Positions 37,896 to 41,175 of a stretch of 54,269 nt of DNA are shown here, one piece after another. Every line of letters starts with the position of its first letter. Position 1 is the stretch's first letter. The DNA lies in contig JAHBWG010000066.1 of the NCBI GenBank assembly GCA_019637095.1, forward strand, positions 1 through 54,269, given 5' to 3'. The notes beneath the pieces are model-generated. The model had not been told where the DNA came from. It made no database searches and saw only the letters and a program-made list of their open reading frames with translations. Both the position numbers and the translations under genes were made by a program. The stretch is from Sandaracinaceae bacterium (lineage in GTDB: Bacteria > Myxococcota_A > Polyangia > Polyangiales > Sandaracinaceae).

Positions 37896-39047
37896 CTAAC
37901 GCAGGCGCGCAGCCATCTCGCGCAGCGCCTCTTCGACGGCCACCGACACGTTGCCGCCGACGGGGCGCCCGTTGAACAGCGCCGCCATCAGCGTCCCGTC
38001 CTCGGCGCGCATCATGAACGCGGTCGTCCCGGGCTTGGATCCGTCGTGCATCCACGCGCGCCCGCGCGCCGACTCGAGCACGAAGAACCCATGGCCGTAG
38101 TGGATGTCGAGCCCGTCCCAGTCGGGGTTCGACGGCGGACGGAGCACGGCGTCGAGCGCCTCCGCGGACAGGACGTCGTCGGGACCCGGGAGCCCGTCGA
38201 CCACCGCGAGGAAGCGGACGAGGTCCGCGGCCGACGCGATCCAGCCGCCATGCGCGGCCATCGGCTCGATGTAGAAGCCGCCGTCCGGCGTCGCGACCTC
38301 CTCCTCGTCCTCGAAGACCGAGCGCGCGCGCGCCTCGCGCGCGTGAGGGAAGTAGGCCGCCTCGTCGTCGGGCCGCTCGGACGGACGCGTGTGCGCGAGC
38401 TCCATGCGCTCGATCCCGGCCGGCGCGAACACGCGCTCGGCGACGAATGCGTCGTAGGCCCGCCCGCTCACGCGCTCGACGATGGCGCCGAGCATGGCGT
38501 AGCCGAGGTTCGAGTACGCGTAGCGCTCGCCCGGGTCGAACGAGAGCGGCCGCCGCAGCGCGACGCGGAGGATGGCGTCGAGCCCCGGCGGGCTCGGCGT
38601 CTGCAGCTCCTTGGCCACGCGCCGGCTCTCGAACGTCCAGTCGTGGCTCTCGTGCCGGTCGAGCCCGCTCGCGTGCTCGAGCAGGTGACGCACGGTGACG
38701 TCCTCCCAGCGCGGGTCCGCGGGCGACGCGGCGAGGTGTGGGAGCGCCGGCTCGTCGAGGGCCAGCGCGCCGTCGGCGATGAGCAGGTGCACCGCCACCG
38801 CGGTGATCGGCTTGCTGAGGCTCGCGATCCGGAACCGCGTGCGGGCGGTGACGGGGCGCCCCTCGGCCGCGACGCCGTAGCCGCGCGAGACGAGCAGCCG
38901 CCCGCCCCGCGCGATCGCCACCTGGCCGCCCGGGAGCTCCCACTCCTCGAGCAGCTCCGCGATCGGATCGCCCCCGCGCGGCGCCGGCACCGGCGCGCCC
39001 GCGCATCCACAGAGACAGAGCGCCATGAACAGGCCGCGACCCACCAT
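37896..39047 (-). CDS. Serine hydrolase of the beta-lactamase/class C family, lipoprotein
   Basis: 383 aa from the ATG at 39047. A short signal with lipobox LCGC (Cys15). The active-site motifs are S-x-x-K (Ser76-Leu-Ser-Lys79 in [12 protein letters not shown]), the Tyr motif YSN (in [10 protein letters not shown]), and [11 protein letters not shown] near the C-terminus in place of KTG. This is the beta-lactamase/D-Ala-D-Ala carboxypeptidase/esterase superfamily; peptidase, esterase or lactamase activity cannot be told apart by reading. Its promoter region, shared with the divergent DCC gene, contains three copies of the GGTCGTTTT-type motif, so it may be co-regulated with the CarH locus. Confidence 0.8.
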
Positions 39048-39049
39048 AC

Positions 39050-39058
39050 GGTCGTTTT
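39050..39058 (+). promoter_or_regulatory. GGTCGTTTT motif, copy 1
   Basis: Exact GGTCGTTTT just upstream of the serine hydrolase start. It is one of three exact copies and one near-copy found only in the promoter-like regions around the CarH-type regulator; such A/T-rich 9-mers stand out in this GC-rich sequence. Proposed operator half-site. Confidence 0.45.
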
Positions 39059-39088
39059 CTAGAGACACCCGGGCCAGAAACAACCATA

Positions 39089-39097
39089 AAAACGTCC
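39089..39097 (-). promoter_or_regulatory. GGACGTTTT motif, near-copy
   Basis: One mismatch to GGTCGTTTT, on the minus strand, in the 113 bp spacer between the serine hydrolase and DCC genes. It is followed by TATGG, as is the copy at 39113. Confidence 0.35.
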
Positions 39098-39112
39098 ACG
39101 ATGACCGCTAAT

Positions 39113-39121
39113 GGTCGTTTT
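39113..39121 (+). promoter_or_regulatory. GGTCGTTTT motif, copy 2, before the DCC gene
   Basis: Exact motif, followed 6 bp later by TACACT (39128-39133), a -10-like hexamer. The third copy, in the redoxin promoter, has TATAAT at nearly the same distance, so the motif would lie between -35 and -10 in both promoters. The ATG is 27 bp downstream of TACACT. Confidence 0.45.
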
Positions 39122-39160
39122 ATGGTGTACACTCGACCCGCGCGATGCCAGGCTCCTCTC

Positions 39161-39583
39161 ATGAGCAGCACCTGGCACGTGGAAGTGTTCTTCGATGGCG
39201 ACTGCCCGCTCTGCGCGCGCGAGATCGGCTTCTTGAGGCGGTTCGACCGGCGCGGCCGGATCCGCTTCACCGACATCGCAGCGCCGTCGTTCGACCCACG
39301 CGCGGTCGGCACCACGTACGAGACGCTGATGGAGCGCATCCACGGGCGGTTGCCGGACGGCTCGCTCATCGAAGGCGTCGAGGTGTTCCGCCGCCTGTAC
39401 GCGGCGGTCGGCCTCGGCCCGCTCGTGTGGCTCAGCCGCCTCCCGGTCGTCGCGCAGCTCCTCGAGGTCGCGTACGAGATCTTCGCGGACAACCGGCTGC
39501 GCTGGACGGGTCGGTGCGACGCCACGTGCGAGAAGCACGCGCGGGCCGAGGCCGGCGTCGCGCCCTCCCCGATCCTGGCGTGA
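39161..39583 (+). CDS. Thiol-disulfide oxidoreductase, DCC family (DUF393)
   Basis: 140 aa from the ATG at 39161; two earlier in-frame ATGs lie inside the promoter region and were not used. N-terminal [21 protein letters not shown] with the Cys15-Pro-Leu-Cys18 motif, and [20 protein letters not shown] in the middle, are typical of DUF393. The biochemical role is poorly known; a thioredoxin-like redox function is assumed from the CxxC. Members are often found with photolyase and B12-dependent MerR regulators, which fits the CarH-type gene 84 bp downstream. Confidence 0.85.
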
Positions 39584-39654
39584 GGCTCGGGCCTCGCGTC
39601 GCCCGATCCAAGCGCGCCGAGCGTTTTGGCCGCTTCCAGAGGACGCCGAGGCCC

Positions 39655-39660
39655 TAGAGT
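39655..39660 (+). promoter_or_regulatory. Possible -10 hexamer (TAGAGT) of the CarH-type gene
   Basis: TAGAGT ends 6 nt before the GTG start and there is no Shine-Dalgarno sequence, suggesting a leaderless transcript. No GGTCGTTTT copy is present here. Confidence 0.33.
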
Positions 39661-39666
39661 AGCTCC

Positions 39667-40470
39667 GTGAACCACCGCCTCCTGACGAGCACCGAAGCTG
39701 CGGAGTGGCTCAAGGCGAGCCCGACGAGCGTCAAGCGGTGGGCCGACGCGGGCCTCATCGAGTGCGTGCGCACGGTGGGCAACCACCGCCGCTTCACGCT
39801 CGAGTCGCTCGAGCGCTTCGCGCAGACGCACGGCGCGACGAGCACCGACGCGAGCGTCGGCGAGTGGCTGACCGTCCTGCTCGAGCGCAACGTCGACGCG
39901 GTGCACGGGCAGCTCCTGCTCGAGCGCTCGACCGCGCCGAGCTGGGCGGAGGTCTGCGATCGGCTCGCGCCCGTCCTCGCGGAGGTCGGCGAGGCCTGGG
40001 CCGCGGGCAGGATCCGCGTCGTCGACGAGCACCTCGCGAGCGAGCGGCTCGCGCGAGGCCTCGCGCGCGTGGTCGACGCCCTCCCGGTGGCGCCGCGCGC
40101 GCCGGTCGCGATGCTCATGACGGTCGAGGGCGACGAGCACACGCTCGGCCTCGCGCTCGCGGAGGTCGTCCTGCGCGAGGCGGGGTGGCAGACGCTCTGG
40201 AGCGGCCGCGCGACCCCGCTCGACGAGCTCGCCGCCACCCTCGCGTCGCGGCGCGTCGACGCGCTCGCGGTGAGCGCGTCGAGCTTCTCGTGCGACGAGG
40301 CCGCCCTCGAGCCGCAGCTCAGGGCGCTCGAGGCGGCGTGCGAGACCGCCGGCTGCGCGCTGGTCCTCGGCGGCAACGGCGCGTGGCCGGATCGTGCGAC
40401 CACCGGCCGCCGCGTGACGACCTTCCGCCAGCTCGGCCGCGTCGTCCAAGAGATCCTCGACGAGCGGTGA
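39667..40470 (+). CDS. CarH/LitR-type adenosylcobalamin-dependent MerR regulator
   Basis: 267 aa from the GTG at 39667. Residues 1-70 are a MerR-like winged helix (LTSTEAAEWLKASPTSVKRW, VGNHRRF). Residues ~75-140 are a B12-binding helical cap with the Wx9EH motif of light-sensing CarH proteins (Trp111, Glu121, His122). Residues ~145-267 are a Rossmann B12 domain with the base-off motif D-x-H-x-x-G (Asp156, His158, Gly161). CarH binds DNA as a tetramer in the dark with adenosylcobalamin and is released by light. Ala112 follows the Trp, where the Thermus protein has the His that ligates cobalt after light, so the photochemistry may differ. Likely targets are the neighbours carrying GGTCGTTTT motifs. 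Confidence 0.87.
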   Translation: MNHRLLTSTEAAEWLKASPTSVKRWADAGLIECVRTVGNHRRFTLESLERFAQTHGATSTDASVGEWLTVLLERNVDAVHGQLLLERSTAPSWAEVCDRLAPVLAEVGEAWAAGRIRVVDEHLASERLARGLARVVDALPVAPRAPVAMLMTVEGDEHTLGLALAEVVLREAGWQTLWSGRATPLDELAATLASRRVDALAVSASSFSCDEAALEPQLRALEAACETAGCALVLGGNGAWPDRATTGRRVTTFRQLGRVVQEILDER

Positions 40471-40496
40471 GCTGCCGCGACGGACGGCCGAGCCGC

Positions 40497-40555
40497 CCGC
40501 ACCGCGCGCCCGCACCGCGCGCCCGCACCGCGCGCCCGCACCGCGCGCCCGCACC
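40497..40555 (+). repeat. 13-bp tandem repeat, about 4.5 copies
   Basis: Perfect head-to-tail copies of CCGCACCGCGCGC in the 143 bp convergent gap between the CarH-type gene and the redoxin-like gene. No coding capacity is seen. It could act in transcription termination or be a neutral minisatellite. The rest of this gap (40471-40613) holds nothing else recognisable. Confidence 0.9.
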
Positions 40556-40613
40556 TCACGATCGCAAGGGACGTTGCGGGTTGGTGCGAAGCGCGGCGGA
40601 CCAGCGCTCGGCC

Positions 40614-41108
40614 TCAGGCGCGCGCGGCGAGCCGGCGCGCGAGCTCGCCCGCGGCGCGCGTGTCGAGGGCGGCGCCGAGCGCGCCGAAGAAGCGCTCGAG
40701 CCCGTCCGCGTCGAGCGGGCCGTCCCCGCGGAAGACGACGCACCCCGTCGCGTCGACCACCGCCACCGTCGACCCGCGCCCGCCGAAGCGGTACGGCGCC
40801 CGCGCGAGCACGCCGTGGAAGTCCAGCCACAGCTCGGCGCCGTAGCGCTGCGCGACGCGCCCGACCGCCGCGCGGACCACCGGCTCGACGAAGCCGAGCC
40901 CGCGCACGTCGGCGATCCCGAGCACCTCTAGGCGACCTCGCATCGACGGGCTCTCGGACAACAGGCCGCACGACTCCTTGAGGTGGAGGTTGTCCTCGAC
41001 GTGGTCGCGCGACTCGTAGAAGACCACCACCGCGCGCCCTCGGAGCGCCTCGAAGCTCAGCGCTCGGCCCCGGGTGGATCGGATGATTTGGCTGCTTTCC
41101 TCGCCCAT
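40614..41108 (-). CDS. Redoxin-like protein (YtfJ-type thioredoxin fold without CxxC)
   Basis: 164 aa from the ATG at 41108. The sequence follows a thioredoxin/redoxin fold: RAVVVFYESRDHVEDNLHLKE, LEVLGIADVRGLGFVEPVVR, YGAELWLDFHG, STVAVVDATGCVVFRGDGPL. The active-site CxxC is absent; Cys is only at isolated places, as in YtfJ-like proteins. There is no signal peptide, so it is cytosolic. A perfect TATAAT lies 7 nt before the ATG and a GGTCGTTTT motif sits between it and the -35 region, so it is the best candidate for direct repression by the CarH-type regulator, whose gene is convergent to it. Confidence 0.65.
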   Translation of the reverse strand: MGEESSQIIRSTRGRALSFEALRGRAVVVFYESRDHVEDNLHLKESCGLLSESPSMRGRLEVLGIADVRGLGFVEPVVRAAVGRVAQRYGAELWLDFHGVLARAPYRFGGRGSTVAVVDATGCVVFRGDGPLDADGLERFFGALGAALDTRAAGELARRLAARA

Positions 41109-41115
41109 GGACGGG

Positions 41116-41144
41116 ATTATAAGACCAAAACGACCGCCACAACA
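41116..41144 (-). promoter_or_regulatory. Promoter of the redoxin-like gene with embedded operator-like motif
   Basis: On the minus strand, TATAAT (41121-41116) is 7 nt before the ATG, so transcription should start at or next to the start codon (leaderless). A weak -35 (TGTTGT at 17 bp, or TTGTGG at 15 bp) precedes it. GGTCGTTTT (41135-41127) fills the spacer, the place where a bound repressor would block RNA polymerase. Confidence 0.6.
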
Positions 41145-41175
41145 CCCCCCGGCCGTCCCAAACCGTCCGTTTCGG

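Follow-up and report, generated by a model that had tools for sequence, protein, structure and literature searches.

Here, we describe a locus in a 54,269-nt stretch of DNA from a Sandaracinaceae bacterium (GenBank assembly GCA_019637095.1, contig JAHBWG010000066.1; hereafter, the window), in which the gene of a putative cobalamin (vitamin B12) photoreceptor lies among genes for a serine hydrolase, a DCC1-like protein, and a thioredoxin-fold protein, and a 9-bp motif, GGTCGTTTT, recurs upstream of these neighbors (Table 1). The DCC gene is the probable first gene of an operon with the regulator gene, the two being separated by an 84-nt gap. The thioredoxin-fold protein had no Pfam match; its family alignment has no CxxC, with E, H, N, and K conserved near the corresponding loop, and because the CxxC is missing, a role as a thiol redox enzyme is unlikely. 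A short GC-rich tandem repeat, cgcgcccgcaccg, lies just downstream of the regulator gene (40500-40560).

Table 1. Genes and predicted operator sites of the locus (window coordinates)
Feature	Position	Strand	Evidence or context
Serine hydrolase/beta-lactamase-fold gene with lipoprotein-like leader, divergent from the DCC gene	37896..39047	−	PF00144, E = 7e-64; start and leader read from the sequence
Half-site AAAACGACC	39050..39058	−	2 nt upstream of the serine-hydrolase ATG; motif scans, ortholog-trained matrix, and distant-relative profile
Weaker half-site GAAACAACC	39077..39085	+	Gap of 18 from the 39050-39058 site, a spacing shared with the inverted arrays of relatives
Tandem 9-bp pair AAAACGTCC + ACGATGACC, second half degenerate	39089..39106	+	Top 18-mer of the window with the ortholog-trained matrix
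Half-site AAAACGACC	39113..39121	−	~40 nt upstream of the DCC ATG
Weak half-site CACTCGACC	39130-39138	+	Gap of 8 after the 39113-39121 site; read from the sequence, below the score threshold
DCC1-like (DUF393) thiol-disulfide oxidoreductase gene	39161..39583	+	PF04134, E = 3.6e-29
Half-site AAAACGCTC, in the DCC-regulator gap	39619..39627	−	Shares the top score under the distant-relative matrix
Regulator gene (267 aa)	39667..40470	+	BldC-type winged helix-turn-helix (aa 5-54) and CarH-type cobalamin-binding domain (aa ~80-245)
Gene for thioredoxin-fold ("redoxin-like") protein without CxxC	40614..41108	−	AlphaFold predicted local distance difference test score (pLDDT), 86; fold matches ResA/TlpA
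Tandem pair AAAGCAGCC + AAATCATCC, inverted, within the start of the thioredoxin-fold open reading frame	41081..41098	−	Second-best tandem match in the window; gap of 19 to the 41118 pair
Tandem 9-bp pair TATAAGACC + AAAACGACC	41118..41135	+	Best tandem match in the window; overlaps the TATAAT that lies just before the thioredoxin-fold gene
Half-site AAACCGTCC, upstream of the 41118 pair	41160..41168	+	Matrix scans

A window scan returned three exact copies of GGTCGTTTT, at 39050(+), 39113(+), and 41127(−), and a one-mismatch copy, GGACGTTTT, at 39089(−), which are the four copies listed in the initial annotation of this DNA. That annotation placed all of them in promoter-like regions; the 39050 copy sits 2 nt before the serine-hydrolase ATG (39047), with no distinct promoter. 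Of the two promoters in which the motif was said to fall just before the −10 element, one has a bare TATAAT (41121-41116, minus strand) beside the 41127 copy, whereas the −10 on the DCC side is weak. A promoter scan recognized no sigma-70-like promoter pair.

Exact GGTCGTTTT occurs six times in the whole 9.25-Mb genome, with three of the six inside the 2.1-kb stretch treated here (genome-wide Poisson expectation, ~2e-6, under the simple backgrounds that our Poisson and shuffle figures assume). The half-site AAAWCGWYC, derived from the regulator family, has 31 genome copies, 4 of them in the local stretch (expectation, 4e-7); its remaining single matches are isolated, several within coding sequence. 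The clustering of GGTCGTTTT is real and beyond chance. The initial annotation had named random scatter of the motif in the genome as grounds for refuting its proposal; this check was run and did not refute it.

The regulator contains the Pfam domains HTH_17 (N-terminal), B12-binding, and B12-binding_2 (the last over its cut-off). Among NCBIfam models, HTH_BldC matches its DNA-binding domain (DBD) best; the domain scores 43.1 bits against BldC subfamily NF033787, under the cut-off of 77, and matches CtMerR (8jbs) and BldC (6ama, 6amk) in the PDB. Aligned to BldC (6ama), the domain keeps equivalents of the contact residues Arg30, Trp31, His46, Arg47, and Arg48 (R-W, H-R-R), and the sequence SVKRWADAG..HRRF takes the place of the conserved RxWERRY recognition helix of myxobacterial CarH and CarA (PMC9304148). 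The light-responsive B12-domain signature (GxxW, EH, GxxH, and GxxxP; SignatureFinder set, CtMerR type; PMC11796333) is complete, as G108xxW111, E121H122, G155xxH158, and G180xxxP184. The best fold matches of the AlphaFold model (pLDDT, 88) are Thermus thermophilus CarH (TtCarH) and 8jbt.

The Wx9EH and B12-binding (DxHxxG) motifs that the initial annotation had read in this protein are thus there, as W111-x9-E121-H122 and GDEH158, and the full signature and the fold match support a light-type B12 regulator. Its identification as CarH fails on the BldC-type DBD without RxWERRY and on direct-repeat operators of 9 rather than 11 bp (see below). From its sequence, the regulator is a BldC-type winged helix joined to a CarH-type B12 sensor, not a canonical CarH, and would be expected to work like BldC at DNA, though it stands outside that subfamily by score. 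Its score against CarH equivalog NF052513 (69.7 bits; cut-off, 400) is a weak criterion: WERRY proteins of sister genera score 140 to 157 and also fail. No carotenoid genes lie beside the regulator in the window; they are present at the orthologs L069 and L075 and at the relative L085.

The reverse complement of GGTCGTTTT, AAAACGACC, reads AAAA-CGAC-C and fits the BldC half-site AATTNNNN(C). BldC recognizes 9-bp direct repeats of AATTNNNN(C), with its wing in the AT-rich minor groove and Arg30 on the C-G pair (PMC5859096). Orthologs of the regulator came from the order and from a set of 84,980 genomes; most of the genomes used are metagenome bins, and many relatives are not independent. The core set excludes a more distant paralog group of the order (~33% identity; L039, L040, and L065-L068). 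Because shared 9-mers (one mismatch), counted de novo on nine promoters, did not significantly exceed shuffles, a period test and a cross-validated profile were used.

The period test, which is motif free, looks for self-repetition at each spacing within the 100 bp that precede the regulator gene. The signal at period 9 was z = 8.0 in 35 orthologs (37 to 49% identity) and z = 11.1 in 39 distant relatives (mostly 22 to 32%), and in these two sets none of the periods 6 to 8 and 10 to 14 stood out. Operators of the canonical 11-bp CarH kind were rejected, as there was no signal at period 11 (z about 1 and −0.1, respectively). An expectation-maximization (EM) fit yielded AAAWCGWNC as the half-site (59 of 78 loci; 8.8 bits); the EM site count alone is weak because control runs on random segments of the same loci often drifted to AT-rich motifs (up to 51 sites, ≤6.1 bits). 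The published BldC consensus was the sole seed of the cross-validated profile, which was trained on half of the family and tested on the other half: 23 of 26 strong matches in 386 kb fell within 200 bp upstream of a regulator gene, as did 26 of 31 in the reverse test. When trained on distant relatives, the profile gave the four reported sites, together with AAAACGCTC at 39619, the five highest 9-mer ranks in the window. The half-site match to BldC, the period of 9, and the cross-validated profile support as probable the initial suggestion that the motif is the regulator's binding site.

The repeats follow this regulator type across Myxococcota, Planctomycetota, Acidobacteriota, Bacteroidota, and Ignavibacteriota. 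Many of the relatives' promoters hold two inverted arrays, with facing A-tracts 8 to 9 or 17 to 19 bp apart; the corresponding gaps in the window are 18 (39058 to 39077) and 19 (41098 to 41118), and a third, of 8 (39121 to 39130), involves a weak partner. Half-sites beyond the four first noted were found at 39077, 39098, 39619, and 41160, together with the tandem pair at 41081-41098, which is possibly a chance occurrence. Upstream of the regulator gene of an Ignavibacteria bin, five 9-bp repeats follow one another (L110:5923-5967), an array that suggests longer BldC-like filaments in some relatives.

Genome wide, the tandem consensus with ≤3 mismatches had 40 matches, versus 6 for a reversed control; the three-mismatch matches are probably mostly background. 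The best two sites (one and two mismatches; C141:42144 and 42211, with starts 67 bp apart) lie ~110 nt before an unlinked gene for a three-domain fasciclin lipoprotein. Sister genomes G002, G005, and G008, which have the regulator, carry one or two sites of ≤2 mismatches each, one of them before a fasciclin gene in every case (G005 and G008 represent one genus and are not independent); this pattern is absent from G001 and G006, neither of which has the ortholog. The thioredoxin-fold orthologs that a protein search identified in G005 and G008 have the sole strong tandem site of their 5-kb loci. The phytoene synthase locus of the window's own genome has no site. The initial picture of a local mini-regulon does not hold, given that the strongest sites precede the unlinked fasciclin gene, and its expectation of photo-stress targets other than the carotenoid set is supported by the fasciclin, thioredoxin-fold, and DCC genes and by the lack of a site at the phytoene synthase locus. 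The regulator's probable targets are a small group of light-stress genes, one of them for a fasciclin surface protein encoded elsewhere in the genome. Separately, G006 (same family) has a strong tandem site, AAAACGTACAAAACGTTC, at L181:1501-1518, which possibly belongs to another BldC-type regulator.

In sister genomes G001, G003, G004, G007, and G009, DCC also stands before a canonical CarH gene (for G003, assigned from adjacent matches and a WERRY label). In G004 (L256), G007 (L254), and G009 (L255), the fasciclin gene is divergent from the DCC-CarH pair, whose CarH is of the WERRY type; between fasciclin and DCC, one candidate pair of CarH-like 11-bp repeats was found in G007, and none was clear in G004 or G009. 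In a tree of the sensor domain, the window protein groups with those of G002, G005, and G008, apart from the family's WERRY proteins. The G002 and G008 orthologs adjoin crtC- and crtD-like genes, and further relatives adjoin genes for photolyase, crtI with phytoene/squalene synthase, cyclopropane fatty acid (CFA) synthase, DUF523/DUF1722, lipocalin, and RPE65. A fasciclin protein belongs to the singlet-oxygen RpoE regulon of Rhodobacter sphaeroides (RSP_1409; PMC7074977), and algal fasciclin proteins (AstaP) bind the carotenoid astaxanthin and quench singlet oxygen (PMC7477208). The simplest reading of these neighborhoods is that the same photo-stress genes persisted under a changed B12 light switch with changed operators, in an apparently rewired regulon. 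G001 has no BldC-type photoreceptor; there, a gene for photoactive yellow protein (TIGR02373, over cut-off; L257:1934-2347, minus strand) stands directly beside the fasciclin gene, so that a third kind of light sensor adjoins the same target.

We consider it likely, on balance, that BldC-headed B12 photoreceptors form a class spread over many phyla, with an undescribed operator code of tandem 9-bp AAAWCGWNC repeats (often inverted 8 or 17 to 19 bp apart), and that in this myxobacterial family the class took over a photo-stress regulon (fasciclin, DCC, and thioredoxin fold) kept beside canonical CarH in sister genera, as a photoreceptor swap with operator rewiring. For the locus itself, our main reading (probability roughly 80%) is that the motif is the operator half-site of the adjacent photoreceptor and that tandem 9-bp arrays repress the DCC-regulator, serine-hydrolase, thioredoxin-fold, and fasciclin genes in the dark, with release by light. 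The domain make-up, the conserved contact residues, the 9-bp operator with its family-wide conservation, and the target promoters come from sequence comparison; for binding by the regulator, dependence on adenosylcobalamin (AdoCbl), oligomeric state, the sign of regulation, and the light response, we infer from CarH, CtMerR, and BldC. In the dark, the AdoCbl-bound regulator would assemble in the manner of CtMerR and CarH, with its winged helices docking head to tail on the tandem AAAWCGWNC repeats, reading the A-tract in the minor groove and the C-G pair in the major groove. Arrays, often as inverted pairs 8 or 17 to 19 bp apart, would cover the promoters for the DCC-regulator operon and for the serine-hydrolase (divergent), thioredoxin-fold, and fasciclin lipoprotein (unlinked) genes, and would block transcription, in the window beside the TATAAT at 41116-41121 (minus strand). 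Light would break the Co-C bond, the assembly would fall apart, and the photo-oxidative-stress genes, the regulator included, would be expressed.

Several points weigh against this reading. The DCC and serine-hydrolase sites are single or degenerate pairs, with no clean tandem repeats; no site was found at the DCC ortholog of G002, and no PF03441 photolyase was found in the own genome. In the regulator, the BldC contact Lys26 is not conserved (6ama alignment), and the His that follows the Trp in TtCarH is missing (W111-A112), as it is in CtMerR. BldC-type binding alone does not imply repression. The nonsignificant 9-mer count on nine promoters belongs here too.

That the regulator and operators are as proposed but the signal is cobalamin level or redox state, or the effect activation instead of repression, is rather unlikely. 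The absent TtCarH-type His and the fact that BldC-type DNA binding is in itself no proof of repression (PMC5859096) would suit it; all four light-responsive signature elements are nonetheless present, CtMerR, of the same domain plan, goes from tetramer to monomer on illumination (PMC11796333), and the family-wide neighbors are photoprotective genes. Ownership of the repeats by another DNA-binding protein, such as a stand-alone BldC-like regulator or an alternative sigma factor, with the B12 protein a mere neighbor, is very improbable: stand-alone BldC-like proteins do occur in many bacteria (PMC5859096), but the repeats follow the gene of this regulator type across five phyla, and the contact residues of its DBD fit the half-site. 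Slighter still is the chance of a canonical CarH, as the initial annotation implied, acting on tandem 11-bp nnnnTnnACAn repeats; Wx9EH, the B12 motif, and a palindrome, GTGTACAC, at 39126-39133 point that way, against the missing RxWERRY helix, the equivalog score, and the lack of an 11-bp signal upstream of the family. Chance or local sequence composition, which the weakly unusual one-mismatch count of the window alone (5 versus 2.2 expected; 6 of 100 shuffles as high) would allow, is already disfavored at the sequence level to the point of being negligible, given the genome-wide clustering, the independent recovery of the sites from other phyla, and the conservation of target genes across sister genera.

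CtMerR of Chloracidobacterium thermophilum (PDB 8jbs/8jbt; PMC11796333), the closest solved relative by sequence, likewise has a BldC-like helix-turn-helix followed by an AdoCbl light-responsive domain. As far as we searched, that paper gives no operator or targets, only "an alternative DNA-binding site," and we found no report of a CtMerR operator in the open-access literature. For photoreceptors of this type, whose structure is known, a family-wide operator, AAAWCGWNC, and a regulon are predicted here. The comparison indicates that B12 light sensing is coupled to two DNA-reading heads with different repeat lengths; the 9-bp operator could give optogenetics an operator orthogonal to that of CarH, and the fasciclin lipoprotein is pointed to as a conserved light-response gene. 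CarH itself (T. thermophilus, Bacillus megaterium, and Myxococcus; PMC9304148) shares with the regulator the B12 sensor domain, Wx9EH, and the expected dark repression on promoter-overlapping direct repeats, but has a MerR-type DBD with RxWERRY, 11-bp nnnnTnnACAn repeats, and mainly carotenoid targets. Streptomyces BldC (6ama/6amk; PMC5859096) shares the winged helix with the Arg30/Trp31/His46/Arg47/Arg48 equivalents and the 9-bp direct repeats, and differs in its 68 residues, its lack of a sensor domain, and its developmental regulon. The RpoE-ChrR singlet-oxygen regulon of R. sphaeroides (PMC7074977), which is under sigma/anti-sigma control and has no B12 photoreceptor, has overlapping target classes, namely, Beta-Ig-H3/fasciclin RSP_1409, CFA synthase, and photolyase.

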